A stretch of DNA of 64,000 nt from an uncultured Opitutia bacterium (GTDB lineage Bacteria > Verrucomicrobiota > Verrucomicrobiia > Opitutales > UBA953): assembly GCA_945957395.1 (NCBI GenBank), contig CAMFKE010000004.1, forward strand, positions 124,001 to 188,000. Reading direction: 5' to 3'. Both the position numbers and the translations under genes were made by a program. This document shows, in pieces, positions 13,698-64,000 of the stretch. Numbering within the stretch: the first letter of the stretch is position 1; every line of letters starts with the position of its first letter. A model generated the notes under the pieces. That model made no database searches. It saw nothing but the letters and a program-made list of their open reading frames with translations, and was not told where the DNA came from.

Positions 13698-14774
13698 ATG
13701 CCCATCGTCCGCTTTCAGGAGTGCCGGTCTTGTCATAAACTCTCCGAAATGAACGCGTTTCATGGCGTAGAAGTCGCGTCGTTCCTGCCCATCCGCAGGG
13801 GGCTTTTGAGTTATCGTTTCAGCCTTTTCATCCGCTCCATGCTCGGTGCCGCCGGTCTGTTAGGCGGCTCGCTCCACGCCATCGGATTGTCCACCGTCGA
13901 TGAGGCTTCCCCGTTTCAGCCGCATGTCCCAACTCCTGCGCATCAGCAGCTGTGGCGTCTAGCCACCGGCATCGTGCTGGGCTCCAATTATGTGTCCTAC
14001 TCGGGCGCCCAGCAGACGAAGGAGGACGACGGCCGTGTGGCTTTCACCAATTGGGTGAACAACGGCGAGTTTGCATATGCCGACATGGGGGGCGACTGGT
14101 CCTACAAGGGCGCGCTGGTCCAGCGTAATTCCTGGGTTTCCGTGCATGGGGATAACCGCTTCCCGTCGTATGTCGGTCTGACCTCCATCTGGATTGACAA
14201 CACCTTCCGATACCATCGGAAGGATTCTCCATGGACTCATGCGATTGTCCTTTCGCCAGGACTTTCATCCGACTTCAAAGTTTTCCATGGAGAGTCCCTT
14301 CGGCTGCCCGTCTACGCCGGAAGCCGTTATCGCCTTTCCTCCTCACTGGAGTTGGAATTGGGAATCACATATGCCGAGGACTTTGTGCAGGCCCCGGTTT
14401 TGCCGGTTTTGGGATTCACCTTCACGCCGTCCGAAAATTGGGAGCTGCGCTACCGCTTCACCACGGTCGAGATTTCTCGGCTTCTTGCGCCTCGCACCCG
14501 ATTTGGCGCGTTCGTCTCGTACGATTCGGCATCCTGGGTTGTCGGCAAGGAGGACGAGCATGGGTTGCTGGCCTATTCCGCCGCGACGGCGGGCCTTGAG
14601 CTCACCCATGGGTTTGATTTGTCTGAAACCTTGCCCGCTTGGGTTTCCTTTGCGGCGGGGTCTTCCTGGGGCGGCTCCGTGCGGCGCTACGACATCGATG
14701 GCTCCAAGCTCCTCGACAGCCTTCAGCTTGATCCCGGGTATTTTTTGCGTTTCGGCCTGGTCATCCGATTCTGA
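13698..14774 (+). CDS. Outer-membrane beta-barrel protein (DUF6268-like)
   Basis: A protein of up to 358 aa. The first 50 residues look non-native. A more plausible start is an internal ATG at 13749 or 13839, which begins a hydrophobic signal (GAAGLLGGSLHA). The mature part is alternating beta strand with many aromatic residues, for example YVGLTSIWIDNTFRYH and GFTFTPSENWELRYRF. It ends in a terminal Phe (RFGLVIRF), the outer-membrane insertion signature. This pattern fits the DUF6268 class of barrels seen in Bacteroidota and Verrucomicrobiota. Function unknown. Confidence 0.72.
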   Translation: MPIVRFQECRSCHKLSEMNAFHGVEVASFLPIRRGLLSYRFSLFIRSMLGAAGLLGGSLHAIGLSTVDEASPFQPHVPTPAHQQLWRLATGIVLGSNYVSYSGAQQTKEDDGRVAFTNWVNNGEFAYADMGGDWSYKGALVQRNSWVSVHGDNRFPSYVGLTSIWIDNTFRYHRKDSPWTHAIVLSPGLSSDFKVFHGESLRLPVYAGSRYRLSSSLELELGITYAEDFVQAPVLPVLGFTFTPSENWELRYRFTTVEISRLLAPRTRFGAFVSYDSASWVVGKEDEHGLLAYSAATAGLELTHGFDLSETLPAWVSFAAGSSWGGSVRRYDIDGSKLLDSLQLDPGYFLRFGLVIRF

Positions 14775-14804
14775 TTCGCTCCGAGCTTGGGCGTATGAAA
14801 CAAA

Positions 14805-14830
14805 GAAGAGGGCCTTTGCGGGCCCTCTTC
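14805..14830. terminator. Bidirectional terminator
   Basis: A 10-bp perfect stem (14805-14814 with 14821-14830) with a 6-nt loop lies between the convergent barrel-protein and TerC genes. It can serve both strands, though flanking T-runs are weak. Confidence 0.65.
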
Positions 14831-14861
14831 GTAAAGGTACGGTCGACAAAGTTCAGGAGTT

Positions 14862-15875
14862 TTAGGCTTCGGTCTTTTTGTCCTTTTCCGGAATCAGCAG
14901 AGACGCCGCCACGGCCACGCCCACGCAGGTGCCGATGATGACGAGCGACCAAAGGATGGGGAATTTTCCATCGAAGGCCTCGTTTAGCCAGGCCATCTTC
15001 AGGCCGACGAATACGAGCACGGCGCCCAGTCCGTATTTGAGGAATCGGAATTTATGCACCACCCCGGACAGCATGAAGTACATCGCGCGCAGACCCAGTA
15101 TCGCGAAGACATTGGAGGTGAAAACAATCAGCGGCTCCTTGGTCAGGGCGAAGATGGCGGGCACCGAGTCCACGGCGAATACGATGTCGCACAGTTCAAT
15201 GAACACCAAGGCGACGAACAGGGGCGTCACATAAAGCAGCCCGTTGTGTTTCACGAAAAGTGCCTGACCTTCGATCGTTTTGGTAACTCGTAGGTGCGAG
15301 TTCAAAAAACGGATCACTGGATTGGTTGAGGGGTCGAGCGGCTTGTCCTTGGACAGGAAAATTTTCAGGCCGGTAAGGATGAGGAAGATACCGAAGCCGA
15401 TGACCACCCATTCGTATTGCATGAGCACGGCGCCGAGCGCTATGAAGATGATGCGAAATACCAAGGCGCCGATGATTCCATAAAAAAGAACTCGGTGTTG
15501 ATAGTGCTGCGGGATTCCAAAGAAGTTGAAGATGACAACGAAGACGAACAGGTTGTCGACCGCCAGGGATTTCTCGACCACAAAACCTGTCAGGTATTCT
15601 AATGCCGCATTCTTTGCCATGACGGGGTGGTCAAGCCCGGCTAGTCGCGGGTCGAGCGGCAGCGCATACTGGGCGTACTGATAAAAGCCCCAGCCAAAGG
15701 CCAACGCCAGCCCCACCCAGAAGATGCTCCAACCAAGGGCCTCCTTGAACTTCACCACATGCGCGTGTCGATGAAACACGCCAAGGTCGAGGGCCAGTAC
15801 GCTTAAGATGAATGCCGTGAAGCTGGCGTAGAACCACCAGTAATCCGCGAATGGAAAGAGTAGGGGGGTGTTCAT
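14862..15875 (-). CDS. TerC/Alx-family integral membrane protein
   Basis: A 337-aa polytopic protein with nine or so hydrophobic segments. The family signatures are YLTGFVVEKSLAVDNLFVF and FIELCDIVFAVDSVPAIFAL, with conserved intramembrane Glu/Asp pairs proposed to coordinate metal. TerC/Alx proteins are implicated in manganese export or in metallation of exported proteins. I looked for the yybP-ykoY manganese riboswitch that often precedes alx and see none. It is transcribed alone. Confidence 0.92.
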   Translation of the reverse strand: MNTPLLFPFADYWWFYASFTAFILSVLALDLGVFHRHAHVVKFKEALGWSIFWVGLALAFGWGFYQYAQYALPLDPRLAGLDHPVMAKNAALEYLTGFVVEKSLAVDNLFVFVVIFNFFGIPQHYQHRVLFYGIIGALVFRIIFIALGAVLMQYEWVVIGFGIFLILTGLKIFLSKDKPLDPSTNPVIRFLNSHLRVTKTIEGQALFVKHNGLLYVTPLFVALVFIELCDIVFAVDSVPAIFALTKEPLIVFTSNVFAILGLRAMYFMLSGVVHKFRFLKYGLGAVLVFVGLKMAWLNEAFDGKFPILWSLVIIGTCVGVAVAASLLIPEKDKKTEA

Positions 15876-15931
15876 GGTCGGTTTACGTGTCTTTTAGGGT
15901 GTTTGAATTGTGTGTTTTTGCCGTCCCATAT

Positions 15932-15971
15932 GCCAAAAGGTAACTCGCTTGAAGACGAATTACCTTTTGGC
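15932..15971 (-). terminator. Perfect 12-bp hairpin downstream of pilin cassette 1
   Basis: GCCAAAAGGTAA (15932-15943) pairs perfectly with 15960-15971 across a 16-nt loop. It lies between the end of the 532-aa pilin-cassette gene and the start of terC, both on the minus strand. There is no strong T-run after it. It could be a factor-assisted terminator, an operator for terC, or a small repeat. Confidence 0.5.
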
Positions 15972-16004
15972 GTTTGTGTTGTTTTGAATTTTGTTTATTT
16001 AGCT

Positions 16005-17603
16005 TTAGGGGATGCTGCTTAAGGAGATTTTTTTGTCGCCTCTTAGCTCTGCCATGTATCCCATTTTGAAATCAGGTGTATATGCTTCTGTGAGGTTTAT
16101 GTCATAATGGAAATTTGCGTTTCCAGTTGCACTTACATTCCATGCCACGATGGATCCCGTCAGCGTTCCAGAGCTGCCGCCGCCTCTTAGTTCAAGCGCG
16201 GCAGCCGGGGCGTAAATGACGCCGCTAAACTGACCGTTGCCGGCTACTTTTATGCTCTGAGTTGGGGTTGCTCCTTTGGCCAGCGGAGCTCCAAGCCCAG
16301 ATAGGTATATCATCTCAGGGGTGGGTTGAGTAGGGGTTGTGCTTGTTCCGCTCATGATTCCATTGCCGGTAATGTCCACATTTCCCGAGGTGTATAGGTT
16401 AAGGGAGCTCTTGGTCGGGCTTGTGGATTCTACAATGAATCCACCCTGACCTGATATTTTTAATTCAGGTCCCCCTGCCAAGAGCGGCTTTCCTGTTGCA
16501 TCGGATCCCATTATTAGGCTGACGCTTCCGTTGATTTTCAGGGTACTTCCCGATTTTCCTGTCAGTGTGAGGGGGGTGTCCATGTAGTAAATTCCTGAGG
16601 TCAGCCCCGTTATGGTCTTGCCCCCCATGGTTATCGCTCCGCTCTTGCTGATGGTGATGGTGTTGGCGGTGGTTTTCGCCGGCAGAGAGGTCACTCCGGC
16701 GCGTTTAAGGATTTCTTGAATGCCGTCTGGCGGATAGTCTGAAATCGACTTGTCGAAGGTTTGGGAAAGGTTGGTAGGGTCTACTCCCGCTGTGATATAC
16801 ATCGGGTCTGTTAGGGCGCTTAGGGCGTCCCAGACATGGGCTCCTTTTTTGAAACTAATCCCAGCCCCCCCTGGCGCCACGGAGACGAAGCCATATATGC
16901 TGACGGAGGCTATGTCCAAGGTCGTAAGGGGCGATCCTACAGTTACTTGGTCGGATATGTTGGTGCTGGCTGGGGCGCCCTTCAGCGAGTCGTATCCATT
17001 TATGATTACATTTCCCCCGGAGAAACTTAACGAGTTCAAGGCAATTAATCCGCTTCCAGTTGAGTTCTCTGGCCTCATGATGGCCAAAAATTGCCTAGAG
17101 TACTTGCTTGGAGAACCGGTTGTGCTGTTTAGCGCGACATCTGAGATTACATAGGGTAATGCGGTTGGGTTTGCTGCCGTTGGTACATTGGCAACAATTA
17201 CCTTAAGGATAGCCCTTCGTCCGTCACCCAAGTCTTTTTCTCCGAAGTTCTTGGCGAACGCCAGGGTTCCTGGATGGATCACAAGTCCTGTAATTGAAGC
17301 TATTTGGGACCATCCGTCACCGGGGTTTCCCGTGAATGAACCCTCGTGGTTTGCTCCCGAAATCGGCCCTGTTCCTGCTCCTGTATTCAGGTGCACATAT
17401 CTATCAATTACCTTCATCGCGCTGTCGACTCCGCCTTCGGCAATCGGTTGCATGGCGTGAAAGGTGAAGCTGGCGTCGGTCACCTTGCGGTTTGTACTGG
17501 TAATATTGAGGCATACGCCTGCTATGGCCGCCAATAGAAATGCCATGAGGAGGGATATCGCCAGCGCCCATCCTCCGCGGCGTTTTGTTGATTTATTTTT
17601 CAT
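16005..17603 (-). CDS. PilX/GspK-like large minor-pilin cassette protein (cassette 1)
   Basis: A 532-aa protein starting at the ATG at 17603. The N-terminus has a basic KRRGGWALAISLL segment running into a membrane helix of about 20 residues, as in PilX/GspK-type minor pilins. No canonical Gly-Phe-Thr cleavage site is present. The remainder is Gly/Ser/Thr-rich and beta-repetitive (TITISKSGAITMGGKTITG, LYTSGNVDITGNGIM), suggesting an extracellular beta-helix or adhesin-like domain. It is the last gene of a three-gene unit after two prepilin-like genes (42-bp gap). The likely role is in a type IV pilus or pseudopilus tip complex. Base composition is more AT-rich than in the neighbouring genes. 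Confidence 0.7.
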   Translation of the reverse strand: MKNKSTKRRGGWALAISLLMAFLLAAIAGVCLNITSTNRKVTDASFTFHAMQPIAEGGVDSAMKVIDRYVHLNTGAGTGPISGANHEGSFTGNPGDGWSQIASITGLVIHPGTLAFAKNFGEKDLGDGRRAILKVIVANVPTAANPTALPYVISDVALNSTTGSPSKYSRQFLAIMRPENSTGSGLIALNSLSFSGGNVIINGYDSLKGAPASTNISDQVTVGSPLTTLDIASVSIYGFVSVAPGGAGISFKKGAHVWDALSALTDPMYITAGVDPTNLSQTFDKSISDYPPDGIQEILKRAGVTSLPAKTTANTITISKSGAITMGGKTITGLTSGIYYMDTPLTLTGKSGSTLKINGSVSLIMGSDATGKPLLAGGPELKISGQGGFIVESTSPTKSSLNLYTSGNVDITGNGIMSGTSTTPTQPTPEMIYLSGLGAPLAKGATPTQSIKVAGNGQFSGVIYAPAAALELRGGGSSGTLTGSIVAWNVSATGNANFHYDINLTEAYTPDFKMGYMAELRGDKKISLSSIP

Positions 17604-17645
17604 GGCTGAATTTTTTTATTGATGTGTTTTTGTGCCTGAAGGCAT

Positions 17646-18225
17646 CTACTTGTTGTTCCTGCATCGCATTGTGACAACAGAGGATACCAGATAGTCTGTG
17701 TTTGCGATGTTGGCGAATGCCCGTCGCATGGTTGCCGCCAAGAGAACCTTCTTGATGTCTGCTGTTCCTGCCGGGTCGGGAGTGTCGTTTTTGTCAAAGT
17801 ATATGAATTTGCATGCAATCAGGTTTTCCATTGCGAATTCTGTTGAGAGCACTTTTCCAGAGCTGTCATACTCGGTTCTTTTGAGCTTTCCGCCAGAAGG
17901 GGATGGTTCGTAAGTGTAGGTTATTTTAGTTACGATCATGGGCCCGTTGACCATGTTTTCTACGCTTGCCTGGGATGCTTTGTTGATTGAGACTTGGGTG
18001 CTCGAAAAATCGGTTTCTACACTGATTGCGTGACGCATGTCATTTTCGAATTTATATACGGCCTTTCGGCTGTATTCATTCATGTCTGCGTAATTTCCGA
18101 GGGATACTCCGAATCGTGATTGCATGATCACCATTCCAAGTACAAGAGTCATCATGATGGTGAAGATGCCTGATGATATTGCGAGGTCCACCAACGTGAA
18201 TGCTTTCCTTTTTTGGGGGGGGCAT
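17646..18225 (-). CDS. PilW/GspJ-like prepilin with apparent frameshift at a G8 tract
   Basis: A minor prepilin of about 190 aa. The only good start, the ATG at 18225, is out of frame with the pilin body by one base. The two are separated by a run of eight G (18215-18222) and six T (18209-18214) as read on the plus strand. Removing one G gives MPPQKRKAFTLVDLAISSG, a normal prepilin leader with basic residues before AFTLVD. As written, the body frame has an upstream TAG and no ATG, GTG or TTG until an internal TTG at 18194, which would remove the leader. The protein has a hydrophobic helix followed by a GspJ/PilW-like globular domain. The cause may be phase variation or a homopolymer sequencing error. 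It sits between the two other cassette genes. Confidence 0.7.
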
Positions 18226-54036: not shown

Positions 54037-54112
<76 letters not shown>

Positions 54113-54115
54113 TTT

Positions 54116-54142
54116 AGGTCCGCAGGTAACCCCTGCGGACCT
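54116..54142 (+). terminator. tRNA-Ala terminator
   Basis: An 11-bp perfect stem (54116-54126 with 54132-54142) lies just after the tRNA 3' end and is followed by TCTTGTTTTTC. Confidence 0.85.
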
Positions 54143-54209: not shown

Positions 54210-54668
54210 TCAGATCAGGCCTTTGGCGCGGGCCACGACGAGCGCCGCCCAGAAGGCCAGGCCCATCAGGGAGAGCAGGGCGGCGAGCGTCGCCTGCGTG
54301 CGGGCGACGGCGTGTTCGCCGCGGCTGTCCATGCGCCGGGCCACGAGCAGCGCGCCGACTGTGGCGAGCCCGGGCAGCACGAAACACAGGCCGCACAGGA
54401 AGAATCCGGCCTTGGCCAGGCTGTCGACGGGCCTCTCGCCGCCGGGCTTCCCTTTCGGGGTGAATTGCGCGGGCTTGCCGGGGCGGGCTGCGCGGGCGCT
54501 CTCGGCGGCGCCGCTGAGGAAGTCACCGAGGCTCACCCATTTGCCGTCGACCTCGATGCGGTGAAGCAGGCTCAGTTCGCCGTCGGCGAGGCGGGTGCGG
54601 ATCTCTTCTCGGGAGAAAGGGCCGTCGGTGCGTCCTTTCCAGCGTATGCGATGCAGGCTCGGGGGCAT
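54210..54668 (-). CDS. GYF-like domain membrane protein
   Basis: A 152-aa protein. The first 55 residues (WKGRTDGPFSREEIRTRLAD, then ending VDGKWVSLGDF) match the GYF_2-type pattern of G-P-F-S, a leucine-rich turn, and a final Trp. A Pro/Lys-rich linker precedes two membrane helices (about 86-110 and 126-147). It lies 16 bp downstream of the large helical membrane protein on the same strand and is probably the last gene of the GTPase operon. GYF domains bind proline-rich partners, so it may dock another component. This last point is inference. Confidence 0.7.
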   Translation of the reverse strand: MPPSLHRIRWKGRTDGPFSREEIRTRLADGELSLLHRIEVDGKWVSLGDFLSGAAESARAARPGKPAQFTPKGKPGGERPVDSLAKAGFFLCGLCFVLPGLATVGALLVARRMDSRGEHAVARTQATLAALLSLMGLAFWAALVVARAKGLI

Positions 54669-54684
54669 TCGGGAGTGTGCGTTG

Positions 54685-57600
54685 TCAGGGCTTGGGCAGG
54701 AACCGGGTCAGCCAATCGTCATCCGGCGGCGTCGAGGCTTCGGGAGCCTTCGCGCCTTCCGGCGTCGGGAGAGCCACGCGAAGGAGGGGAGAGTAGGCGG
54801 CCGGGCGACGCGTCAGCGAGGCTGAACCGTCCCGGGCGATGGCGCCGAGCACGGCGGCCTTGCCCTCGGCGGTCAGGCCGATCAGCCGCTCTCCGGGCGT
54901 GCCGGCGACGGGGCCGGGCTTGGCGTCGGCGTCGGTGCGTCCCGCATAGGCGATGCGGGCGCTCGCCAGGGCTTTCGCCTGGGCGCCGCGTTGCGCGGCC
55001 GCCGGCAGGTATGGCGCCCGCTTCTCGGCGTAGAATTCGGACAGGCGTTTGCGCGGCTCCGCGAGGCCCTCCGCCTTCATCCAGGTCGACGCTTCCGGCG
55101 GGGCGATGGGCAGGGCGCGCAGCCGGGCCGCATCCGCCGCGGCTTCGGGAGAGAACGCCAGGCCCCACTCGCCGGGACGCTCGGCCATGACGGCCAGCAG
55201 CTCGCGGTGCAGCCACGCTTTCAGCAACGGGTCGGCCTTGGAGGCCACGACGCGGTCCAGCGCCGCCAGCGGGGCCTCGCCGAACGCCGACCTGTCGGTG
55301 TCGTAAAAGCTTTTCAGTGAGGCGAGCAATTCGCCCTCCCGCGAGGCCTGGGCGCTTTCCAGCGTTTCCCCGGTGGGTTGGCGCCCGTTGAACTGCCGCA
55401 TGATGAACAGCGCCTTCGACGAGGTGCCGTCCGTCGCGACCGTCTCGGCTTTCACTCTCGTCTCCGTGCCTCCGGCCAAGTCGAGCGATTCAAACTGCGG
55501 CTGCGCTTTGATCAGAATCGGGGTCAGGCTTTTGCCCGTCGTCGTGTAGGTGACTTTGACCGCGCGCCAGACGCCGGCGAACCGGGTGAGGGCCGCTATG
55601 CGTCCCGCCGCGGCGGTCTCTCCGGCGGTCGGCTCGGCCGCGACGAACGAGGGCGTTTCCGCGCTCGTTTTGGCCGCCGAGAGCATGGCTCTGCCTGCCG
55701 GCGTCGCCACTTTCGACAGGAGGTCGGACTGGAGTTCGGAGGCGGCGGCGCAAACCCGACGGGCCGCCGTCGTTTCGCGGGTGCCGTCCTCCAGCGCCGA
55801 CAGCGCTTCCATGGCGGCCAGATGGGTCGCGAGTGAATCCGCCAGCTCCAGCTTGCGGAACGCCTCCGTGCGGGCGCGTTGCAGGCCTGCTGCGGATTCC
55901 ACCAAGGCGAGTGTCGCGCGCGCCCGGTTGAGGCAGACCTGGCGGGCGCTGCCGGGCGCCTCCAGCGCGGCGCTCAGCGAGGCCTTCAGTTCGATGAATT
56001 CGGGTGATTCGAAAAGGTCGGCCGGGGCCGTCCTCATGAGGCTTTCAAGACGGTCTGCGGGCGCGTTCAGCGAGAGCTCGTCGACGGCGAGTCGCGCCGC
56101 GTCGCACTCGGGCCGCACCTCCGCGGCGAGGTCCGTGGGAAGCTGCTCCAGTGCCGCCGGCAGCGCCGCCACGCGCTCCCGCAGCGCATTGACCGCCGGC
56201 GATTTGCCGCTCGCCGCCTTGATGACGGCGGCGGCCTCTTCAGCCAGGCTTCGACGCAGGGCGTCGGCCCGGTCGGAGCGCGTTTTCAGCGCCGACACTC
56301 GGGCCGCGTTTTCCGCGGAGCGAGCCAGGTCGGGGTGACGGCGCGCGGGGCCCGCCAGGAACTCGAGCACGGGGCGCTGCGTCGGGGCCGCTTCGGCACG
56401 CTCCAGCCCGGTGCGGAACTCGCGTTCGGCCGCGGCGTTCTGCGACATGACCGCGCCGGTGATGACGATGCCCGCGGCGGACGCCGCGCAGAGCGTGGCG
56501 ATGGCGAGGGTGCGGTTGCGTCGGCGGTGCAGCTCGGCCTTGAGCTTGGAGCGCACATGGCGCGCCCGCACCAGCGGCGCGTGGAAATTCGCGGACTCCG
56601 GCAGGGCTTCCGCCTCCCCGATCCAGCTTTCGGCGGTGGCCAGGTCGGCGACGATGAACTCGCGCGAGCGGGCCTTCCCGGTCAGTCGCTTTTCCATCTC
56701 ATCCAGACGACGGTAAAGGTCCTCGGTCTTCTCCTCTTCGCGGCGCAGCTTTTCCACGACCGTCGAATGGCTTTCCACCCAGGCTTCGGTGTGCGCCAGG
56801 AGCTTGCCCTCCTCGGCCGGCCAGCGGAAACCGTAGCGCTTCTCCATCGCCCTGGCCTTGCCGAGCAGGGGGATCGCGCCCTCCCATTCGCCGGCGTCGC
56901 GCAGCACGATGATTTGCGGGATGAGCAGGATGGCTTCGCCCAGGGCGCGTTTGGCCTCCCATGCGTCGCGCATCCGGGACGCCTCGTTCCATTCCGAGCT
57001 GTCGGGGCAGGGGGCTAGTCCCGCATGCTCCATCTCGCTCATGATGCCGAACACCTCGTTGTCCTGTCCGTGTTCCCGGGCCGAGCGCAGGCGCGCCAGC
57101 ATCTCGCGGCGCAGTTTGCCCGAGAGCCGCTCGAACTCCTCCCGGGCGTTTTTGTCGGCGGAGTTCACGCGAGCGATGGAGCGCAGCACGCCGAGCGCCT
57201 TCAGGTCGTCGCGCTCGCGCATGGCCGCCCGGTAGTCGCGGTAAAGCGGATGGGATTCCCCGATCTCTTTGGAGTAAAGGGAGTTCACCTGCTCGATGAG
57301 CGTCTCCTCCAGCTTGTGCGCCAAGGGCAGCCTGTGCTCCTTGCAATACTCGCGCCACGCCGGAGAGCGTTCGAACGCCAGCGCGGCGGCGAGGTCCAGC
57401 ACCGGCGGCGGAGCCTCCGCGACCTGCAGCGCCGCGTTGTCGTTGCCCGCCTTGATGAGCGAGGCGCACTGGCGCATGCGGTCGCGCACGCTCTCGGCCA
57501 GCGCGGCGTATTCGGAAGCCAGCGCGCGGGCCTCGAAGCCCTCCGCCGCGCCATCCAGCACGGCGTTGATGCGCAAAAGGAGTCGGTCGATGTTCATCAT
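54685..57600 (-). CDS. Large helical single-pass membrane protein of the GTPase operon
   Basis: A 971-aa protein from the ATG at 57600. Its start overlaps the stop of the upstream GAP1-like gene by 4 bp (ATGA), so translation is coupled. Residues 1-360 are helical and charged, with EYCKEHRLPLAHKLEETLIE and a coiled coil near 275-312. One membrane helix lies at about 364-386 (LAIATLCAASAAGIVITGAV). The remaining 585 residues are Ala/Glu/Arg-rich and helical, presumably on the other side of the membrane, with a small beta section around 740-800. No enzyme motif is evident. The family is not one I know. Confidence 0.75.
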   Translation of the reverse strand: MMNIDRLLLRINAVLDGAAEGFEARALASEYAALAESVRDRMRQCASLIKAGNDNAALQVAEAPPPVLDLAAALAFERSPAWREYCKEHRLPLAHKLEETLIEQVNSLYSKEIGESHPLYRDYRAAMRERDDLKALGVLRSIARVNSADKNAREEFERLSGKLRREMLARLRSAREHGQDNEVFGIMSEMEHAGLAPCPDSSEWNEASRMRDAWEAKRALGEAILLIPQIIVLRDAGEWEGAIPLLGKARAMEKRYGFRWPAEEGKLLAHTEAWVESHSTVVEKLRREEEKTEDLYRRLDEMEKRLTGKARSREFIVADLATAESWIGEAEALPESANFHAPLVRARHVRSKLKAELHRRRNRTLAIATLCAASAAGIVITGAVMSQNAAAEREFRTGLERAEAAPTQRPVLEFLAGPARRHPDLARSAENAARVSALKTRSDRADALRRSLAEEAAAVIKAASGKSPAVNALRERVAALPAALEQLPTDLAAEVRPECDAARLAVDELSLNAPADRLESLMRTAPADLFESPEFIELKASLSAALEAPGSARQVCLNRARATLALVESAAGLQRARTEAFRKLELADSLATHLAAMEALSALEDGTRETTAARRVCAAASELQSDLLSKVATPAGRAMLSAAKTSAETPSFVAAEPTAGETAAAGRIAALTRFAGVWRAVKVTYTTTGKSLTPILIKAQPQFESLDLAGGTETRVKAETVATDGTSSKALFIMRQFNGRQPTGETLESAQASREGELLASLKSFYDTDRSAFGEAPLAALDRVVASKADPLLKAWLHRELLAVMAERPGEWGLAFSPEAAADAARLRALPIAPPEASTWMKAEGLAEPRKRLSEFYAEKRAPYLPAAAQRGAQAKALASARIAYAGRTDADAKPGPVAGTPGERLIGLTAEGKAAVLGAIARDGSASLTRRPAAYSPLLRVALPTPEGAKAPEASTPPDDDWLTRFLPKP

Positions 57601-59717
57601 GGTTTGTCGAATCGTACGAGTGTTAGGGTGACTCCTGCTCCCGGCGGAGCGAGGCAAATGGTCCAGGGCGCTCCGGCTTCGCGCAGGTTGCCCGGCAGGT
57701 TCGCCAGCGCCCTTTCAAGGGCGGGGATGTCTCCTGCGCCCGCGGCGGAGCGCCGGGCCTCTGCGAGACGGGCGCGCAGGGCCTGCTCCACGACCGCCCT
57801 TCCGGCCTCCAAACCCGGGTGGTCGCGCGGGACGCCGTTGAAACCGTGCGGAAGCAGGGCGGCTTGCGCCCCCTGGGCGCGCAGACGCATCACGAGGGTG
57901 TTCAGCCAGGCCGGCGGCGAGACTCCGCCCGGGCCTTCCCGGAGCAGGTCGGCGGAGAGGATGAGCGGAGTCGGCGCCACGCCGGACTCGGACAAGAGCA
58001 GCGAGGCGCGCTCGCCCGTGTCGTCGTCGCTCAGCGTGACCAGGCTCGCGCGTCCGACGGGAAGAGGGAGCGAGGCGGGGTCGGCGGCCTTGGGCCGGCG
58101 GCGCGTGAGGGTGATGCGTTTGCGCGAGTCGATTTCGAGCCCGAGCAGGCGATGGTGCTCGGGGTGCTCGACGACCAGCGCCTTGCCCGGCGAAAAGTCC
58201 TTGGGAGGAATCGTCGTGCTGAAGGCGGCCCGCGCCGGGGCGGAGAAACCGGTGAACGGCGCGACGGACAGGCTGACCCGGGCGCGCTTCGCGCCGAGGA
58301 ATTCGGCCGGCTCGGGCGCTTCGCCCAAGTCGGCGCACTCGCTCGTCGCCAGTCCGGTGTCGCCGAGGGGCGTCCATCGGGGAATCACGATGCGGCAGGC
58401 GGGCAGGGCGGCTTCGGCCCGCTCCATGGCGTCGAGCTCCCTTTCGAGGGAAGCCAATCGGGCGGCCTCGCCGGCGGGCACGGGCGTGCCCGTCCGGGAG
58501 CAGAGGTCCCGCAGTTTTGTAATGGAATCACGGATGCGCTTTCGCCCCGAGGCTTCCGGTGAAGCCGAGACGGCTTCCATGTCGCTTGTGATTTTGAAAA
58601 GGCCGTCGCTCACAAGTCCCGCCCGGATCTCCGGAAGAATGTCGGCCCTCCGCTCCAATGCCTCCGCGGGCGCCGCATCGCCGAGCGCGAGCCAGGCGGC
58701 CGCGGCCGCGGTGAGGTCGCCCGCCTTGATCGCCGCGAGCGCTTCGGTGGTCAGCGGGTGCGGCGTCTTCAGTGGCGTCGCGGGAGCCGGCGCTTCCGTC
58801 ACGGTCGAACTTGATGCGGCGTCGCCGGTCTCGGTTTCTCCGTTGTGCAGCATGACGAACACCGACGCCGTCGCCAGGGCGGCCGTCGCCGTCAGCGCGA
58901 CCAGGGCGATGTTTCGCGAGGAGGCGGGGGCGGTTTGCGTCGCGGTTGGAGCCGGCTCGGCGCCGAAGGAGCGGGGGACAGCCCGGTTGGCGTTCGGGGC
59001 CGGTCGGGCGCCGGGCATGACGCCGGCTCTGGCGAGCGTGGCGCGACGCGCGAGGCCGGGGTCGGGCAAGGTGCGCGGGTCGGCCAGGGGGGAGGTGCGC
59101 CAGAGGCATTCCTTGTCGGGAGCGTCGCGGCGCGTGGTGAACGGCGTGGTCCATCCCTTGTCTTCCAGCAGGAGCGAGGCTTCGGCGATCAGCGCCAGAG
59201 CGTCGGCACCTGCGGGCGCGGGCATCACGCCGGGTTTGGCTCTGCCCGAATCATCGCAGAAGAGCGCCGCTTTTCCGGCGTCGCCCGTGGCGCGCTTCCA
59301 CTCCGATGCGGGAAGCGATGCGGGTTTGCCCGCAAGCGCGAGGGTGGCGTCCCCGATAAACCGGGGTGGGCCTTCCCACCGGTCGAACCATCCGGCGAAC
59401 CTCCGCGCGATGTCGGCGGGCGGAGGCAGCTCGCCTATCTCGGACAGCGAAAAGACGAGGTGATGGGCGAGGGTGGAGTCGCGTCCCGTATAATCGGGGC
59501 CGGCGTCGGCGTAGCGGGTGAGCACCGCGCAGGTCTCGCCCGCCGAGCGCACGACCCTGAAGGCGTGGCAGGCGCCCTCGCCGGGCTCGTGCGCCCCCAG
59601 CGTTTCCAGTTCCCTCACGAGGCGCTCGCCCAAGTCGGCGGAGCGGGCGACCGTGCAGTATCCGGAGCGTCCTGGCGCCAGCCCCGAGGGCGCGGAGGCG
59701 AACAGCAGCTGTCGCAT
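57597..59717 (-). CDS. GAP1-like GTPase-associated membrane protein
   Basis: A 706-aa protein. Residues 1 to about 230 resemble the N-terminal module of GTPase-associated protein 1 (GAP1): the start MRQLLFASAPSGLAPGRSGY with CTVARS is very characteristic, as are YTGRDSTLAHHLVFSLSEIG and FCDDSGRAKPG. A Pro/Ala-rich linker leads to one membrane helix (about 269-291). An Ala-rich helical segment and a beta-rich domain follow, ending LTLVRFDKP. Such proteins are reported by comparative genomics next to P-loop GTPases in predicted conflict systems. The gene starts 4 bp after the GTPase stop and overlaps the next gene by 4 bp. Confidence 0.78.
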   Translation of the reverse strand: MRQLLFASAPSGLAPGRSGYCTVARSADLGERLVRELETLGAHEPGEGACHAFRVVRSAGETCAVLTRYADAGPDYTGRDSTLAHHLVFSLSEIGELPPPADIARRFAGWFDRWEGPPRFIGDATLALAGKPASLPASEWKRATGDAGKAALFCDDSGRAKPGVMPAPAGADALALIAEASLLLEDKGWTTPFTTRRDAPDKECLWRTSPLADPRTLPDPGLARRATLARAGVMPGARPAPNANRAVPRSFGAEPAPTATQTAPASSRNIALVALTATAALATASVFVMLHNGETETGDAASSSTVTEAPAPATPLKTPHPLTTEALAAIKAGDLTAAAAAWLALGDAAPAEALERRADILPEIRAGLVSDGLFKITSDMEAVSASPEASGRKRIRDSITKLRDLCSRTGTPVPAGEAARLASLERELDAMERAEAALPACRIVIPRWTPLGDTGLATSECADLGEAPEPAEFLGAKRARVSLSVAPFTGFSAPARAAFSTTIPPKDFSPGKALVVEHPEHHRLLGLEIDSRKRITLTRRRPKAADPASLPLPVGRASLVTLSDDDTGERASLLLSESGVAPTPLILSADLLREGPGGVSPPAWLNTLVMRLRAQGAQAALLPHGFNGVPRDHPGLEAGRAVVEQALRARLAEARRSAAGAGDIPALERALANLPGNLREAGAPWTICLAPPGAGVTLTLVRFDKP

Positions 59718-59721
59718 CGGT

Positions 59722-61503
59722 CTAGACGGTCGGGATGACTCCGGGGACGGCCTGCGAGATGAGCCAGTAGGCGGCCGTATTGACGCCGGCAGGCTTGAGT
59801 TTGGACGGGTTGGGCGCGAGCATGCCGGCCTTCGGTCCCTCGGTGATCTGCGTGGGCGAGTGACCCAGCGCGCTCACGGGGAAGTAGCGCACATTGTCGG
59901 AAATCGACTCGGCGCCCGACACGAGCGTGGGGCAAAGGTCCAGCAGCAGCGACCGCAGGTAGTCCGAGTTCTCCTTCACCCGGGCCAGGTTCAGGCGCCC
60001 CTGCGCCACCGGGGAGCGCAGCCCGACGGCGTTGAACACCGGCTCCCACACGTCGCATTTGCCGATGAGCACCGCCAGAGGGACCTTTATCCTGTCGGCG
60101 CGAGAGAGTCCGGCGATGCGTTTGATGCGCACCTCCATCTCGGCCAGGATGGTGTCCTGCTGGTCGATGACGCCGTTTCGTGTGAGTTGCGGGTCGTGGG
60201 AGAACCCTTCCAGCTCGGCGCGGAAGGCTGCGTTCGAGGTGGGGTCGAAGAGGAAGAAGATGCCTTCGGAGCGCGCCACATGCATGGCGCCGGGCGAGTT
60301 TTCAGGGTCCAGTCCGGGTTCGAAGTGTTCGCCCGCGTTGTCGTAGAAGATGAAGGAGTTGTCGGGCGCGCCTTCCTTGCGGATGGAGTAAACGAAGGGG
60401 CGCGGCAGGGCCACCGTGCGCCCGTGGCGGCGCAGCCTCTCGTAGAATGCCCCCTCCAGCGCCGTCTTCGACAGGATGGCCTCCTCCGGCGTGACCGCCG
60501 AGAACAGGCGGTTTCGCATCTGGTTGAGCATCAGGTTTCCGGTCGGGTCGTCGTCGCGCAGCGTCAGCCCGAAGTCGCGGAAGAGGCCCTCGTGCAGCAC
60601 CTTGGTCAGCACGGCCAGAAGGTAGGATTTGCCGGAGCCCGGTGCGCCCACGATCGACAGGATGTGATGGGTGCTGTCCAGGTAACCGTTGGGTAGCCTG
60701 CGCCGGCAGTGCGGGCAGGCCAGGTCCGGGGCGGGCAGCCCCATCGGGTCGAGCGCTATGCCGGCATCGTTGAAACGGGTCGGGTGGAATCTCAGCCGGT
60801 GGTCCGGTCCGAGCACGGGGTCGCCCGAAAGCTCCTCGTGCGTCGCGATGCTCAAGGCGTCTCCGGCGTCGAAGCGCTGCCAGCAGGCCGGGCAGAAGCG
60901 GCTTCCTTCGTCGCCCGCGAGCACGGCCGACGGCGGCGCCGTTTCCCCTGCGCCGCGCAGGGCCTTTGCGACACCTTCGGCGAGAAATCCCGTATCCAGA
61001 CCGTGGGGACACACGGCGCATTCCGCCGGGCTCGCACCGAGGCGGGCGAGCAGGTCGGGGATTTCGTTGGGCGGGCATTGGCCAAGCACCCGGCCGGTGG
61101 TCGTCTCGAAGACATTCCAGACCTTGGTGTCCAATCCCGGGGGCCAGTCCGCCTCGGCGCCCACGCGCAGGAAGCACAGCCGGTGTTCAAGCTGGAGCGT
61201 CACCGTCTCCCCGTTCGGGAGCGCCGCGCTCGCCAGCAGGGGCGCGCCGTTCACGATGGCGTCGCGCTCGCCGGAGGACGGCAGGATGTGCGGCGCGCCG
61301 TCTACCAGATCGAGCGTCACGCGCGCCGCCAACTGGCCGGATCCCTCTCCGCGTATCACGACGGGGAAGTCGACAATGGTTTCGACGTCGCCACCCAGCG
61401 CGTCCACGAGGGTCACCGCGACGCCGGGAGTCGCCGGGTTTTCGGCCGTTTTGCGCAGCGGGATGAATTTTCGCCAGCCGGTGGATGGGGTGTCGACGGA
61501 CAT
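59722..61503 (-). CDS. Zinc-ribbon P-loop GTPase with FHA-like N-terminus
   Basis: A 593-aa cytoplasmic protein from the ATG at 61503; an upstream TTG at 61545 would add 14 residues. Residues 40-115 look like a divergent FHA fold (DFPVVIRGEGSG, then IVNGAPLLASAALPNGETVT). Cys pairs C162/C165, C204/C207 and C263/C266 suggest zinc ribbons before the G domain. The Walker A motif GAPGSGKS is at 286-293. Asp388 in FYDNAGEH has the DxxG switch pattern, and GKCD at 481-484 stands where NKxD is expected, with Gly for Asn. This resembles the double-GTPase (DO-GTPase) group of TRAFAC GTPases. Nucleotide specificity is inferred. It heads the four-gene operon. Confidence 0.8.
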   Translation of the reverse strand: MSVDTPSTGWRKFIPLRKTAENPATPGVAVTLVDALGGDVETIVDFPVVIRGEGSGQLAARVTLDLVDGAPHILPSSGERDAIVNGAPLLASAALPNGETVTLQLEHRLCFLRVGAEADWPPGLDTKVWNVFETTTGRVLGQCPPNEIPDLLARLGASPAECAVCPHGLDTGFLAEGVAKALRGAGETAPPSAVLAGDEGSRFCPACWQRFDAGDALSIATHEELSGDPVLGPDHRLRFHPTRFNDAGIALDPMGLPAPDLACPHCRRRLPNGYLDSTHHILSIVGAPGSGKSYLLAVLTKVLHEGLFRDFGLTLRDDDPTGNLMLNQMRNRLFSAVTPEEAILSKTALEGAFYERLRRHGRTVALPRPFVYSIRKEGAPDNSFIFYDNAGEHFEPGLDPENSPGAMHVARSEGIFFLFDPTSNAAFRAELEGFSHDPQLTRNGVIDQQDTILAEMEVRIKRIAGLSRADRIKVPLAVLIGKCDVWEPVFNAVGLRSPVAQGRLNLARVKENSDYLRSLLLDLCPTLVSGAESISDNVRYFPVSALGHSPTQITEGPKAGMLAPNPSKLKPAGVNTAAYWLISQAVPGVIPTV

Positions 61504-61778
61504 GGGAATGCGGATAACCGGAGCCTCGTTTTCGAACAACGCCAAAAGCGCCTTGTACCAAGGTTTTATGCGTCTTCGGTGCGGGTTTTCGGGTGACTCT
61601 TTTTTTACGCGCGAGGGCGCTTTGATGGAAAAAGGAGCATGCGTTCTTGTCGATGCGGCCGTGGAATCCTATCGGGTGGGGCGCGCATGCCGCATTTCAT
61701 GCGGCGGCGAATTTCCTTCCTAAGGGATTTCGGCCCTGCGCGTCCTATCTGTCATCCAACCTTTCGCCGCCCGGTCCC

Positions 61779-64000
61779 ATGAATCCCTCCCGCACCGCAC
61801 TTCGCCTGCTCGCCCTCGCGCCGTTTTCCCCGCTCGCCCTTGTCGCCCAGGATTCGGACGCACCCGTCGGCGCGTTCCCGGAGTCCGAGGCTGCGGCGCA
61901 CGCCGCGGCGTATGACGAGGCTTTGGCCCGCTCCGCCTGGGACAAGGCGGTCGCCTCTCTGGTGTTGAAGATTCGCGCCGAAAACACCAAGCGCGACGAG
62001 GGCGAGGGGGACGCCTTGCGTGCCCTGGAGAAGGCCGCCGACTCGGCGCCCGAGCCCATGCGCGCCCCGCTTCGCGCGCTGCTGGCGCACCATTTCCGCG
62101 CCTACTACGACAACCACTCGCATGAGTTGTCCTCCCGTACTGCCGGCGGCTCGGGCGATAAAATCGAAGGGTGGGACGGCCCCCGTCTGTTGCGCGAGGT
62201 GGACGCGCGCTTCCGCTCGGCGCTCGCCGACGAGGCCGCCTTGCGCGCCGCCCCCATCGACTCGTATTCGGCGATCACCGACGGGAAATCCGGCGCCGAC
62301 GCCGCGCGCCCGACGCTGTTCGACTTCCTCGCCTACGACGCCTTCGCCTACTACACCGGCCGCTCCCGTTTCCGTTTCGCGCCCGATGAATCCCCGCTGT
62401 TCCCCGACGACTCGCCGCTTGTCGGCGACACCGACGAGTTTCTCGCGTGGCGACCCGCCGGGGACACCGCGCCGGTCCGCGCGGTCGCGCTGCTTCAGCG
62501 CCTGCTGCGCGCGCACCGCACGCATCCGGAAGCTTTTGCCGAAGCCGAGCTCACCCGCCTGCGTTGGGCCCGCGAGGCCTGCGCGGGCGAATCCGCCGCG
62601 CGCCGGGTTCGAGCGCAGTTGAAAAGGTTGATCGAGACGCACGGTGCGACCCGCGCCGCCGCCATGGCGCATGCCGAGATCGCCGAGAGCCTGCTGGCCT
62701 CCGGCGACCCCAAGGGCGCCCGTGCCGTGGCCGACAAGGGGCGCGGGCTTCTCGCCGGTTCTCCCGGCGCCGCGCGTTGCGAAAACATCCTTCGCGACAT
62801 CGAGGCCCCCGAGGTCACGCTGAAGACGGAGCGCGTGTGGAACGCCCCCTGGCCCCGGCTCACGGTGGTGCACAAGAACCTGGGCAAGCTGCACTTCCGC
62901 GCCGTGCGCTGGGATTGGAAGGAGTTTCTTGGCGCCAATCGCGGCCGGCCCGAGTGGCTCACCGACAAGGAAAAGGCGGCTGTGCTCGCCGCCGCGCCCG
63001 CAAAGACCTGGAGCGTCGAACTGCCCGCCTCGGGCGATTTCAAGTCGCGCACCGATCGGTTCGAGGTTCCCGAAGACCTCGCCCCCGGCTTCTACTTCCT
63101 CATCGCCGCCGGCGACGAGAACTTCTCCGACAAGGACAACCGAGTCTTCTACACCGACTTTTGGGTGAGCAAACTCGCCGTATTCGCCGAAGGCGAGTCC
63201 GGCGACAAGGTGACCGGGCGCGTGTGCGACGCCTCCACCGGCGAGCCCCTTTCGGGCGTCGCCGTCACAGGCTGGCAACTCTCGGGCCGTCGTGAGCGCG
63301 TGAGCGTGGGCGATTCCGTGACCGACGCCTCCGGCCGGTTCTCACTAAGCTCGCCCAATCGGCGAGGCCTGCTGCTGCTGGCCCGCAGCGCGGACGGTCA
63401 GGAGCTCGGCTCCATGCAGGAGTTCGCCGGAGTCCCGGAAATCAAGCCGGTCAATCCGCACAACCGCGTCGCGTTCTTCGCCGACCGCGGCGTGTACCGC
63501 CCGGGGCAGACCGTGCGCTTCAAGGGCGTCGTGCTGCGCGCCGAGCCCGAGTCGCTCAAGCACCGCCCGATTTCCGGCCGCAATGTGACCGTCGCGCTCG
63601 ACGACCCCAACGGCAAGGAGGTCTCGCGTCTGCGCGTCACCTCCAACGACTACGGCGCCTTCGAGGGCGCGTTCACCGTGCCCGCAGACCGCCTGCCCGG
63701 CAGGTACGCCCTGCACACCGTCGGCAACGAGAACGGACGCGACCATGTTCAGGTCGAGGAGTACAAACGCCCCACTTTCGAGGTGAAGCTGGACGCGCCC
63801 GCCGCGGCGTCGGGCCCGACGCCCGAGACCCGTCTTGTGACGGTGCGCGGTTCCGCCCTCAACTATACCGAAGCCCCGGCCGAAGGCGCCAAGGTCGTCT
63901 GGCGCGTGACGCGCGAGGTGCGCTGGCCCCTTTGGTGCTGGTGGCGCCCCGCCGAGCCTCCCGTCGAGATCGCTCACGGCGAGGCCGTCACGGACTCCTC
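61779..64000 (+). CDS. Alpha-2-macroglobulin-family protein (3' end outside window)
   Basis: At least 740 codons are open from the ATG at 61779 to the window edge. The signal peptide ends near LALVAQ (about residue 24), and no lipobox Cys is present. About 430 helical residues follow, then beta-sandwich MG-type domains. The MG2 hallmark FADRGVYRPGQTVRFKGVVL is at 567-586, and KVTGRVCDASTGEPLSGVAV is a carboxypeptidase-regulatory-like loop before it. Bacterial A2M proteins trap or block proteases in the periplasm. The thioester motif, if present, lies beyond the window. It is divergent from the GTPase operon, with a 275-bp intergenic region that has no clear gene. Confidence 0.85.
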   Translation, partial: MNPSRTALRLLALAPFSPLALVAQDSDAPVGAFPESEAAAHAAAYDEALARSAWDKAVASLVLKIRAENTKRDEGEGDALRALEKAADSAPEPMRAPLRALLAHHFRAYYDNHSHELSSRTAGGSGDKIEGWDGPRLLREVDARFRSALADEAALRAAPIDSYSAITDGKSGADAARPTLFDFLAYDAFAYYTGRSRFRFAPDESPLFPDDSPLVGDTDEFLAWRPAGDTAPVRAVALLQRLLRAHRTHPEAFAEAELTRLRWAREACAGESAARRVRAQLKRLIETHGATRAAAMAHAEIAESLLASGDPKGARAVADKGRGLLAGSPGAARCENILRDIEAPEVTLKTERVWNAPWPRLTVVHKNLGKLHFRAVRWDWKEFLGANRGRPEWLTDKEKAAVLAAAPAKTWSVELPASGDFKSRTDRFEVPEDLAPGFYFLIAAGDENFSDKDNRVFYTDFWVSKLAVFAEGESGDKVTGRVCDASTGEPLSGVAVTGWQLSGRRERVSVGDSVTDASGRFSLSSPNRRGLLLLARSADGQELGSMQEFAGVPEIKPVNPHNRVAFFADRGVYRPGQTVRFKGVVLRAEPESLKHRPISGRNVTVALDDPNGKEVSRLRVTSNDYGAFEGAFTVPADRLPGRYALHTVGNENGRDHVQVEEYKRPTFEVKLDAPAAASGPTPETRLVTVRGSALNYTEAPAEGAKVVWRVTREVRWPLWCWWRPAEPPVEIAHGEAVTDS

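Follow-up and report, generated by a model that had tools for sequence, protein, structure and literature searches.

DO-GTPases and the GAP1 proteins that accompany them have been named from sequence alone and are predicted to form conflict systems. Their GAP1-N2 type was predicted in 2020 by Kaur et al. (PMC7159879), who also predict that GTPase and GAP1 interact and who give a glutamate in the Walker-B motif as a hallmark of the DO-GTPases. For planctomycetes the same paper reports GAP1-N2 systems with a gene combining GYF and transmembrane (TM) segments, and it lists the type for verrucomicrobia as well (PMC7159879). In a later paper, DO-GTPases are cited for a predicted part in membrane-related stress (PMC11237479). 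Here we describe a minus-strand operon of four genes, at positions 54210-61503 of a 64,000-nucleotide stretch of contig CAMFKE010000004.1 (hereafter the window) from an uncultured Opitutia bacterium. The operon encodes a zinc-ribbon GTPase, a single-pass GAP1-N2 protein, a 971-aa single-pass protein that we call P971 and a small GYF-like membrane protein.

An earlier note on this DNA had described these open reading frames as a membrane-tethered GTPase system and linked it to the predicted conflict systems. All four were recovered where it had placed them, with spacings of 4, -4 and 16 nt from the GTPase to the GYF end. They are real genes, as other genera and families have orthologs of each, 20-54% identical and just as tightly packed in the same order. 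On balance, the four proteins probably form a GTPase switch that is anchored in the membrane and governs a process of the cell envelope.

The core pair is a DO-GTPase2-like GTPase and a GAP1-N2 protein

The window GTPase scores 24.7 bits against the DO-GTPase2 profile, for which the Pfam cut-off is 27, and 21 of 21 orthologs match the same profile (best E 1.9e-7). It carries the motifs GAPGSGKS, YDNAGEH (with the Walker-B glutamate) and GKCD. The G1 and YDNAGE motifs are kept in 61-62 of 63 homologs, the latter with its glutamate in 61 of the 63. Two CxxC pairs precede the P-loop throughout the phylum and fit either one zinc ribbon or two. The zinc-ribbon P-loop GTPase described earlier is therefore confirmed; it is present as a single copy in the window genome.

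The FHA-like N-terminus proposed for this protein is weakly supported. FHA structures appear among the marginal profile matches of the region (EssC, E 0.007; KIF13B, E 0.083), Pfam FHA reaches a weak E of 0.21 in one ortholog, and the G-R / S-x-x-H signature of phospho-Thr binding was not seen in an alignment of 12 N-termini. The region evolves fast, at twice the rate of the GTPase, with a mean identity of 30% versus 61% for the zinc-ribbon and GTPase part. The FHA assignment is thus weak and the domain degenerate at best, so that the docking of phospho-peptides, the partner-binding role previously suggested for it, is unsupported.

The earlier proposal had been made to depend on a GAP1 match in the 706-aa protein and on the four genes being conserved together elsewhere. 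GAP1-N2 (PF20013) scores 54.5 bits in this protein against a cut-off of 24 (E 1.7e-14) and matches 22 of 22 orthologs. Neither GAP1-M nor GAP1-C was found there by Pfam at E up to 1, GAP1-N2 being the only match, and GAP1-M (PF20014) is absent from the window genome. As had been noted, a single TM helix is predicted. The mean identity of the protein is 52% in the N part versus 32% in the C-terminal part, and the invariant positions lie within residues 1-206. The arginine of the motif DYTxRxNxLAHH is present in all 54 genuine GAP1s (52 by motif search and two that read AQH for AHH).

In an AlphaFold model (pLDDT, the predicted confidence score, 78) this arginine, R79, is predicted to sit in the turn that connects strands 61-74 and 80-90. 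The solved structures nearest to the N-terminal part of the model are the longin domain of Lst4 (Z 8.1 over 113 residues) and TagF (Z 6.9 over 199 residues). Weak matches to Ig-like beta-sandwiches (Z 5-6) were obtained for the modelled C-terminal part, and one ortholog has an Ig domain. Longin domains bind small GTPases, and the catalytic residue of FLCN is Arg164 (PMC7063858). We therefore offer, as a concrete hypothesis rather than a result, that GAP1-N2 could act as an arginine-finger GTPase-activating protein (GAP). The charges flanking the GAP1 membrane helix are ambiguous, and we place GAP1-N2 inside the cell by deduction from its presumed GTPase partner.

P971 is the constant third component

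The third gene encodes the helical, single-pass 971-aa protein that had been described, with one predicted TM helix. P971 and its orthologs belong to no Pfam family. All 17 invariant columns fall at aa 28-191, and the mean identity is 55% in the conserved cytoplasmic domain versus 28-41% in the C-terminal parts. A flank rich in K/R lies on the N-side of the TM helix in 19 of the 19 orthologs with a predicted TM, and therefore the N-terminus should be inside. The structure model (pLDDT 82) is helical, with a TPR-like packing at 112-216 and a C-terminal beta part. A fold relative of P971 was sought among solved structures and no convincing or overall match emerged; searches of solved structures with profiles of all four proteins likewise returned no usable relatives. 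Taken together, the conservation profiles of GAP1 and P971 suggest cytoplasmic docking domains under constraint, attached to extracytoplasmic parts that diversify.

We searched 289 Verrucomicrobiota genomes and found P971 in 29 and GAP1-N2 in 50 of them. GAP1-N2 occurs in 25 of the 29 genomes with P971 versus 25 of the 260 others (Fisher p=2.8e-18). In a profile search, 46 of 59 GAP1 loci had GTPase, GAP1 and P971 in this order, whether or not the GYF gene was there too; others lie at contig ends or have a divergent third gene. At four loci where the profile missed P971 (L151, L155, L156 and L161), GAP1 is followed by a protein of 996-1080 aa with one TM helix near residue 350. A scan for P971 across genomes of 85,000 species gave 71 loci, titled Opitutae or Verrucomicrobiota except for a few titles of metagenome-assembled genomes (MAGs), which are probably mislabelled. 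Given this co-occurrence, the fixed order and the restricted distribution, P971 is a constant third component, and the conservation of the genes with one another, expected in the earlier note, is observed.

Among them, L166 and L167 carry the Opitutae operon under the titles Akkermansia muciniphila and Polynucleobacter meluiroseus; both are MAG contigs.

The GYF/TM gene is a conserved fourth gene. Its two TM helices are predicted as had been proposed, and the GYF assignment is sub-threshold in the window protein (14 bits against a GYF_2 cut-off of 25.8) and supported by the ortholog of genome G037 (6.1e-12), where an RDD membrane domain is present too. The G037 protein comes close to the GYF pair fused to a TM-rich region in planctomycete GAP1-N2 systems (PMC7159879). 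The earlier note had recognized neither the 971-aa nor the GYF component from described systems; the system is not entirely new, as planctomycetes offer a precedent for the GYF-TM gene.

The operon is inherited like a core function

Orthologs of the GTPase are present in 35 of 57 relatives; within the window organism's own family, almost every genome of g2, g4 and g5 has one. The full four-gene order, tightly packed, recurs in g2, g5 and two further families. Within the family, protein distances track those of the housekeeping protein SucA, with Mantel r of 0.94 for the GTPase, 0.95 for GAP1, 0.96 for P971 and 0.85 for the GYF protein; none of 5000 permutations reached the observed values. The g2 and g5 loci have flanking genes in common on both sides. 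No relative of the proteins was found among the 2.9 million viral contigs of IMG/VR, and none of the four matched in PADLOC. From the sucA-like distances, the shared flanks and these two negative searches, we conclude that the inheritance pattern is that of a core function and not of a mobile defence island.

Genera g3 and g4 depart from the four-gene order. GTPase genes without an adjacent GAP1 were seen in g4 at L034, L035, L037, L038 and L039, and in one genome, G023, multiple copies or pieces of the GTPase are spread over different contigs. The genes of the system are scattered in genus g3 and the GTPase is lost, with an orphan FHA-like module near an extracytoplasmic function (ECF) sigma factor gene and an orphan GAP1 elsewhere. 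At the g3 loci (L063, L064, L164 and L165) the FHA-like module is a separate gene of ~156-177 aa and the GAP1-N2 protein measures 474-490 aa.

This pattern bears on the conflict role that the earlier note mentions and that the authors of the GAP1-N2 type favour. Under an anti-phage role, the single-pass proteins would sense a disturbance of the envelope caused by phage, the GTPase would set the threshold, and the part of effector would fall to the GYF/TM protein or to a motor. The prediction of GAP1-N2 systems as conflict systems (PMC7159879) speaks for it, as do the fast-evolving periplasmic parts and the MotA/ExbD-like genes that adjoin the module in relatives, MotAB-like motors being core parts of Zorya defence (PMC11890865). 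However, a near-universal presence in three genera of the family, at one syntenic locus and with vertical inheritance, does not resemble a defence island, with its patchy occurrence and changing effectors. The absence of PADLOC matches and of viral homologs points the same way. The four genes contain no nuclease, toxin or variable effector gene, in agreement with the absence of a nuclease or killing domain already remarked on, and the neighbours look housekeeping. We consider a conflict role unlikely for this operon.

Sister operons adjoin motor, pilus and sigma factor genes

In many other families the operon runs on into a MotA/TolQ/ExbB channel gene (PF01618, 1.9e-10 and 3.6e-10) and two genes for ExbD-like single-TM proteins, as at L126, L127, L142, L144, L145, L151, L284 and L286. 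The two ExbD-like proteins bear the motifs FQDIITxxxG and LLLDTxCNxFG, with an aspartate at the start of the TM helix in nearly all. An aspartate at this position is typical of ExbD and MotB. In another set of loci, most of them from family f48, the genes after the module encode PilM (PF11104, PilM_2 7.5e-11) and a PilO/T2SSM-like protein whose T2SSM match is weak (0.021). Finally, all g2 and g5 loci and those of family f17 have a divergent ECF sigma factor gene next to the GTPase. The window locus consists of the four genes only, with no motor, pilus or ECF gene adjacent.

Because sister operons extend into a motor triad or into PilM and a PilO-like protein, or face an ECF sigma factor, the output is likely an envelope process. 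Of the two outputs suggested previously, membrane disruption or signalling, the former is disfavoured by these neighbours.

In L151 a vWA gene closes the run of motor genes. Related MotA/ExbB-ExbD-ExbD triads occur at L281, in genome G054, which has no GTPase match, and at L282, a second copy in G037 that is not next to the GTPase operon. Such triads may constitute a broader system that is independent. Beside the ECF sigma gene, a 151-175-aa gene lies upstream and is conserved in 13-14 loci (L040-L056); it has no Pfam match and may encode an anti-sigma factor.

A probable membrane-anchored GTPase switch and its alternatives

A membrane-tethered switch fits the anatomy of the proteins. The cytoplasmic DO-GTPase would be the switch, held at the inner membrane by the single-pass GAP1 and P971, whose conserved cytoplasmic domains would contact it while their faster-evolving C-terminal domains extend into the periplasm. 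GAP1-N2, with its putative longin-like fold and the one arginine found in all copies, would regulate GTP hydrolysis. P971 would link the switch to a partner spanning the envelope, and the small GYF/TM protein would dock a proline-rich partner. In sister lineages the envelope partner may be encoded next door, either as a MotA/ExbB channel with two ExbD-like proteins or as a platform of PilM and a PilO-like protein. The window genome keeps just the four-gene control module together, so the partner would be encoded elsewhere or be a different one.

Several points weigh against this model. No MotA/ExbB gene of the associated subfamily was detected in the window genome, and the envelope role in this organism is therefore proposed from what is seen in sister families. 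The similarities of GAP1-N2 to longin and TagF (Z 8.1 and 6.9) are marginal, at a level that, as the search tool warns, may reflect a common arrangement, and they are not backed by similarity in sequence, no direct comparison having been made for TagF. In genus g4 the GTPase mostly lacks an adjacent GAP1, so it can either work without GAP1 or decay in its absence. The literature searched held no experiment or biochemical data on any DO-GTPase or GAP1, and Kaur et al. themselves favour conflict (PMC7159879).

Alternatively, the GTPase complex could sense the state of the periplasm and free the divergent ECF sigma factor for transcription, as a pathway of envelope-stress signalling. The sigma factor gene stands beside the GTPase in g2, g5 and f17, and in g3, where the GTPase is lost, the ECF gene and the FHA-like module stay together. 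However, an ECF gene is not adjacent in the window or at the majority of distant loci, and a 168-aa gene next to the sigma factor seems the better candidate for its regulator; we regard this alternative as improbable. Least probable of all is that the operon encodes a factor for the assembly or quality control of complexes in the inner membrane (a platform like that of pili and type II secretion, or an ExbB/ExbD stator), with the GTPase as an assembly timer instead of a signalling switch; association with both PilM/PilO-like and MotA/ExbD-like complexes and the TPR-like cytoplasmic part of P971 would suit it, but the four-gene version persists with neither complex adjacent.

The membrane-anchored switch also invites a broader and more tentative proposal, which we consider less likely than not. 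In it, DO-GTPase, GAP1-N2 and P971 would form a previously undescribed, phylum-wide unit that switches MotA/ExbB-ExbD motors and pilus-like platforms. This unit would be a counterpart of MglA/MglB-AglRQS that evolved separately, and GAP1-N2 would be its arginine-finger GAP, bacterial and with a longin fold. If true, a so-called conflict family would be a core envelope regulator in Verrucomicrobiota. The constancy of P971 and the motor, pilus and sigma factor associations turn a vague prediction into a testable one, and if the envelope role is right, the conflict label needs rethinking for this branch.

Features and surroundings of the locus

The coordinates of the operon are collected in Table 1. 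On its downstream side lies a tRNA-Ala on the plus strand, accompanied by a strong inverted repeat (54037-54142); the number of terminator-like inverted repeats in the region is not above that in shuffled sequence. Genes further to the left appear by inspection to be housekeeping ones (sucA and hemE). On the other side, ~200 bp from the GTPase start, a divergent alpha-2-macroglobulin-like gene begins (61707-63998, plus strand; MG2 domain, 6e-18) and runs off the window end. We considered it as a part of the system and set it aside, as no homolog was seen at other loci. Elsewhere in the window, at 14001-18000, GC content is 0.50-0.55 versus ~0.67 around it, possibly an acquired stretch.

Table 1. 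Coordinates of the operon, its protein regions and the adjacent repeat within the window.
Feature	Position	Strand	Remarks
DO-GTPase2-like GTPase, 593 aa	59722..61503	-	longer starts possible
Putative degenerate FHA-like domain, aa ~30-125 of GTPase N-terminus	61129..61416	-	weak support
Zinc-ribbon cysteines C204-C207 ... C263-C266	60706..60894	-	nearly invariant in alignment
P-loop GTPase domain, aa 278-590	59734..60672	-	GAPxSGKS, YDNAGEH, GKCD
GAP1-N2 protein, 706 aa, single TM	57597..59717	-	PF20013 1.7e-14
GAP1-N2 cytoplasmic region, aa 1-232, motif DYTxRxNxLAHH (R79)	59022..59717	-	conservation; model resembles Lst4 longin/TagF
GAP1 transmembrane helix, aa 270-288	58854..58910	-	hydropathy in all 22 orthologs; model helix 269-291
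GAP1 C-terminal helical and beta part, aa 295-706, probably periplasmic	57600..58835	-	structure model
P971, 971 aa, single-pass, third component	54685..57600	-	ATG 57600; 990 aa from upstream TTG
P971 conserved cytoplasmic helical domain, aa 1-220	56941..57600	-	invariant columns; mean identity 55%
P971 transmembrane helix, aa 367-385	56446..56502	-	prediction; TM near residue 350 in most of the distant copies
GYF-like domain and two TM helices, 152 aa	54210..54668	-	GYF_2 14 bits, sub-threshold
Inverted repeat, 11-bp stem, terminator-like	54116..54142		between tRNA-Ala (+) and operon end

Comparison with known systems

Zorya pairs ZorA/ZorB with defence effectors; the operon has no PADLOC match, and no MotA-like gene of the associated subfamily was found in the window genome. 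TagF binds an FHA protein in type VI secretion (PMC5995506), and a parallel could be drawn, TagF being the second-best structural neighbour of the GAP1 N-region and the GTPase N-terminus being FHA-like. This link comes from a single marginal structural match with no link in sequence; TagF_N was not found in the 289 Verrucomicrobiota genomes, nor in the controls, nor in two plasmids (rhizobial/Paraburkholderia) on which type VI loci were expected.

With the longin GAPs FLCN/FNIP (Lst7/Lst4) (PMC4703059, PMC7063858), GAP1-N2 would share the suggested longin-like fold and a fully conserved arginine. Those proteins, however, are eukaryotic and soluble, they show no sequence similarity to GAP1-N2, and the structural match is marginal. 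The MglA/MglB-AglRQS machinery of Myxococcus gliding (PMC9120999) resembles the operon in joining a cytoplasmic GTPase to a dedicated partner. In sister operons it is also matched by one MotA-like and two MotB/ExbD-like genes next door, as in AglRQS, and in others by a link to pili. Unlike MglA/MglB, the GTPase is DO-GTPase2-like and GAP1-N2 is by sequence not a roadblock protein (Pfam names), and no motor genes lie beside the window operon. The resemblance may therefore concern a mode of action and not membership.

By its profile matches and motifs, the pair of GTPase and GAP1 belongs to the DO-GTPase systems of the GAP1-N2 type of Kaur et al. (PMC7159879). Shared with that type are a zinc-ribbon DO-GTPase with the Walker-B glutamate, GAP1-N2 downstream, TM components, the occurrence in verrucomicrobia and, in some systems, a GYF-TM gene. 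Conversely, GAP1-M, GAP1-C, the fibronectin type III (FNIII) protein and the listed effectors are missing here: no fn3 match was obtained in the four proteins or their orthologs, and in place of variable effector modules there are four constant genes co-inherited with sucA. A single-pass protein of ~1000 aa is the constant third gene, and relatives have MotA/ExbB-ExbD, PilM/PilO-like or ECF sigma neighbours; ExbB, MotA, TolQ, PilM, pilus, sigma factor, longin and TagF do not appear in the main text of that paper. Because GAP1-M, GAP1-C, FNIII and variable effectors were looked for and not found, the operon is a distinct variant of the GAP1-N2/DO-GTPase kind and not a standard member.

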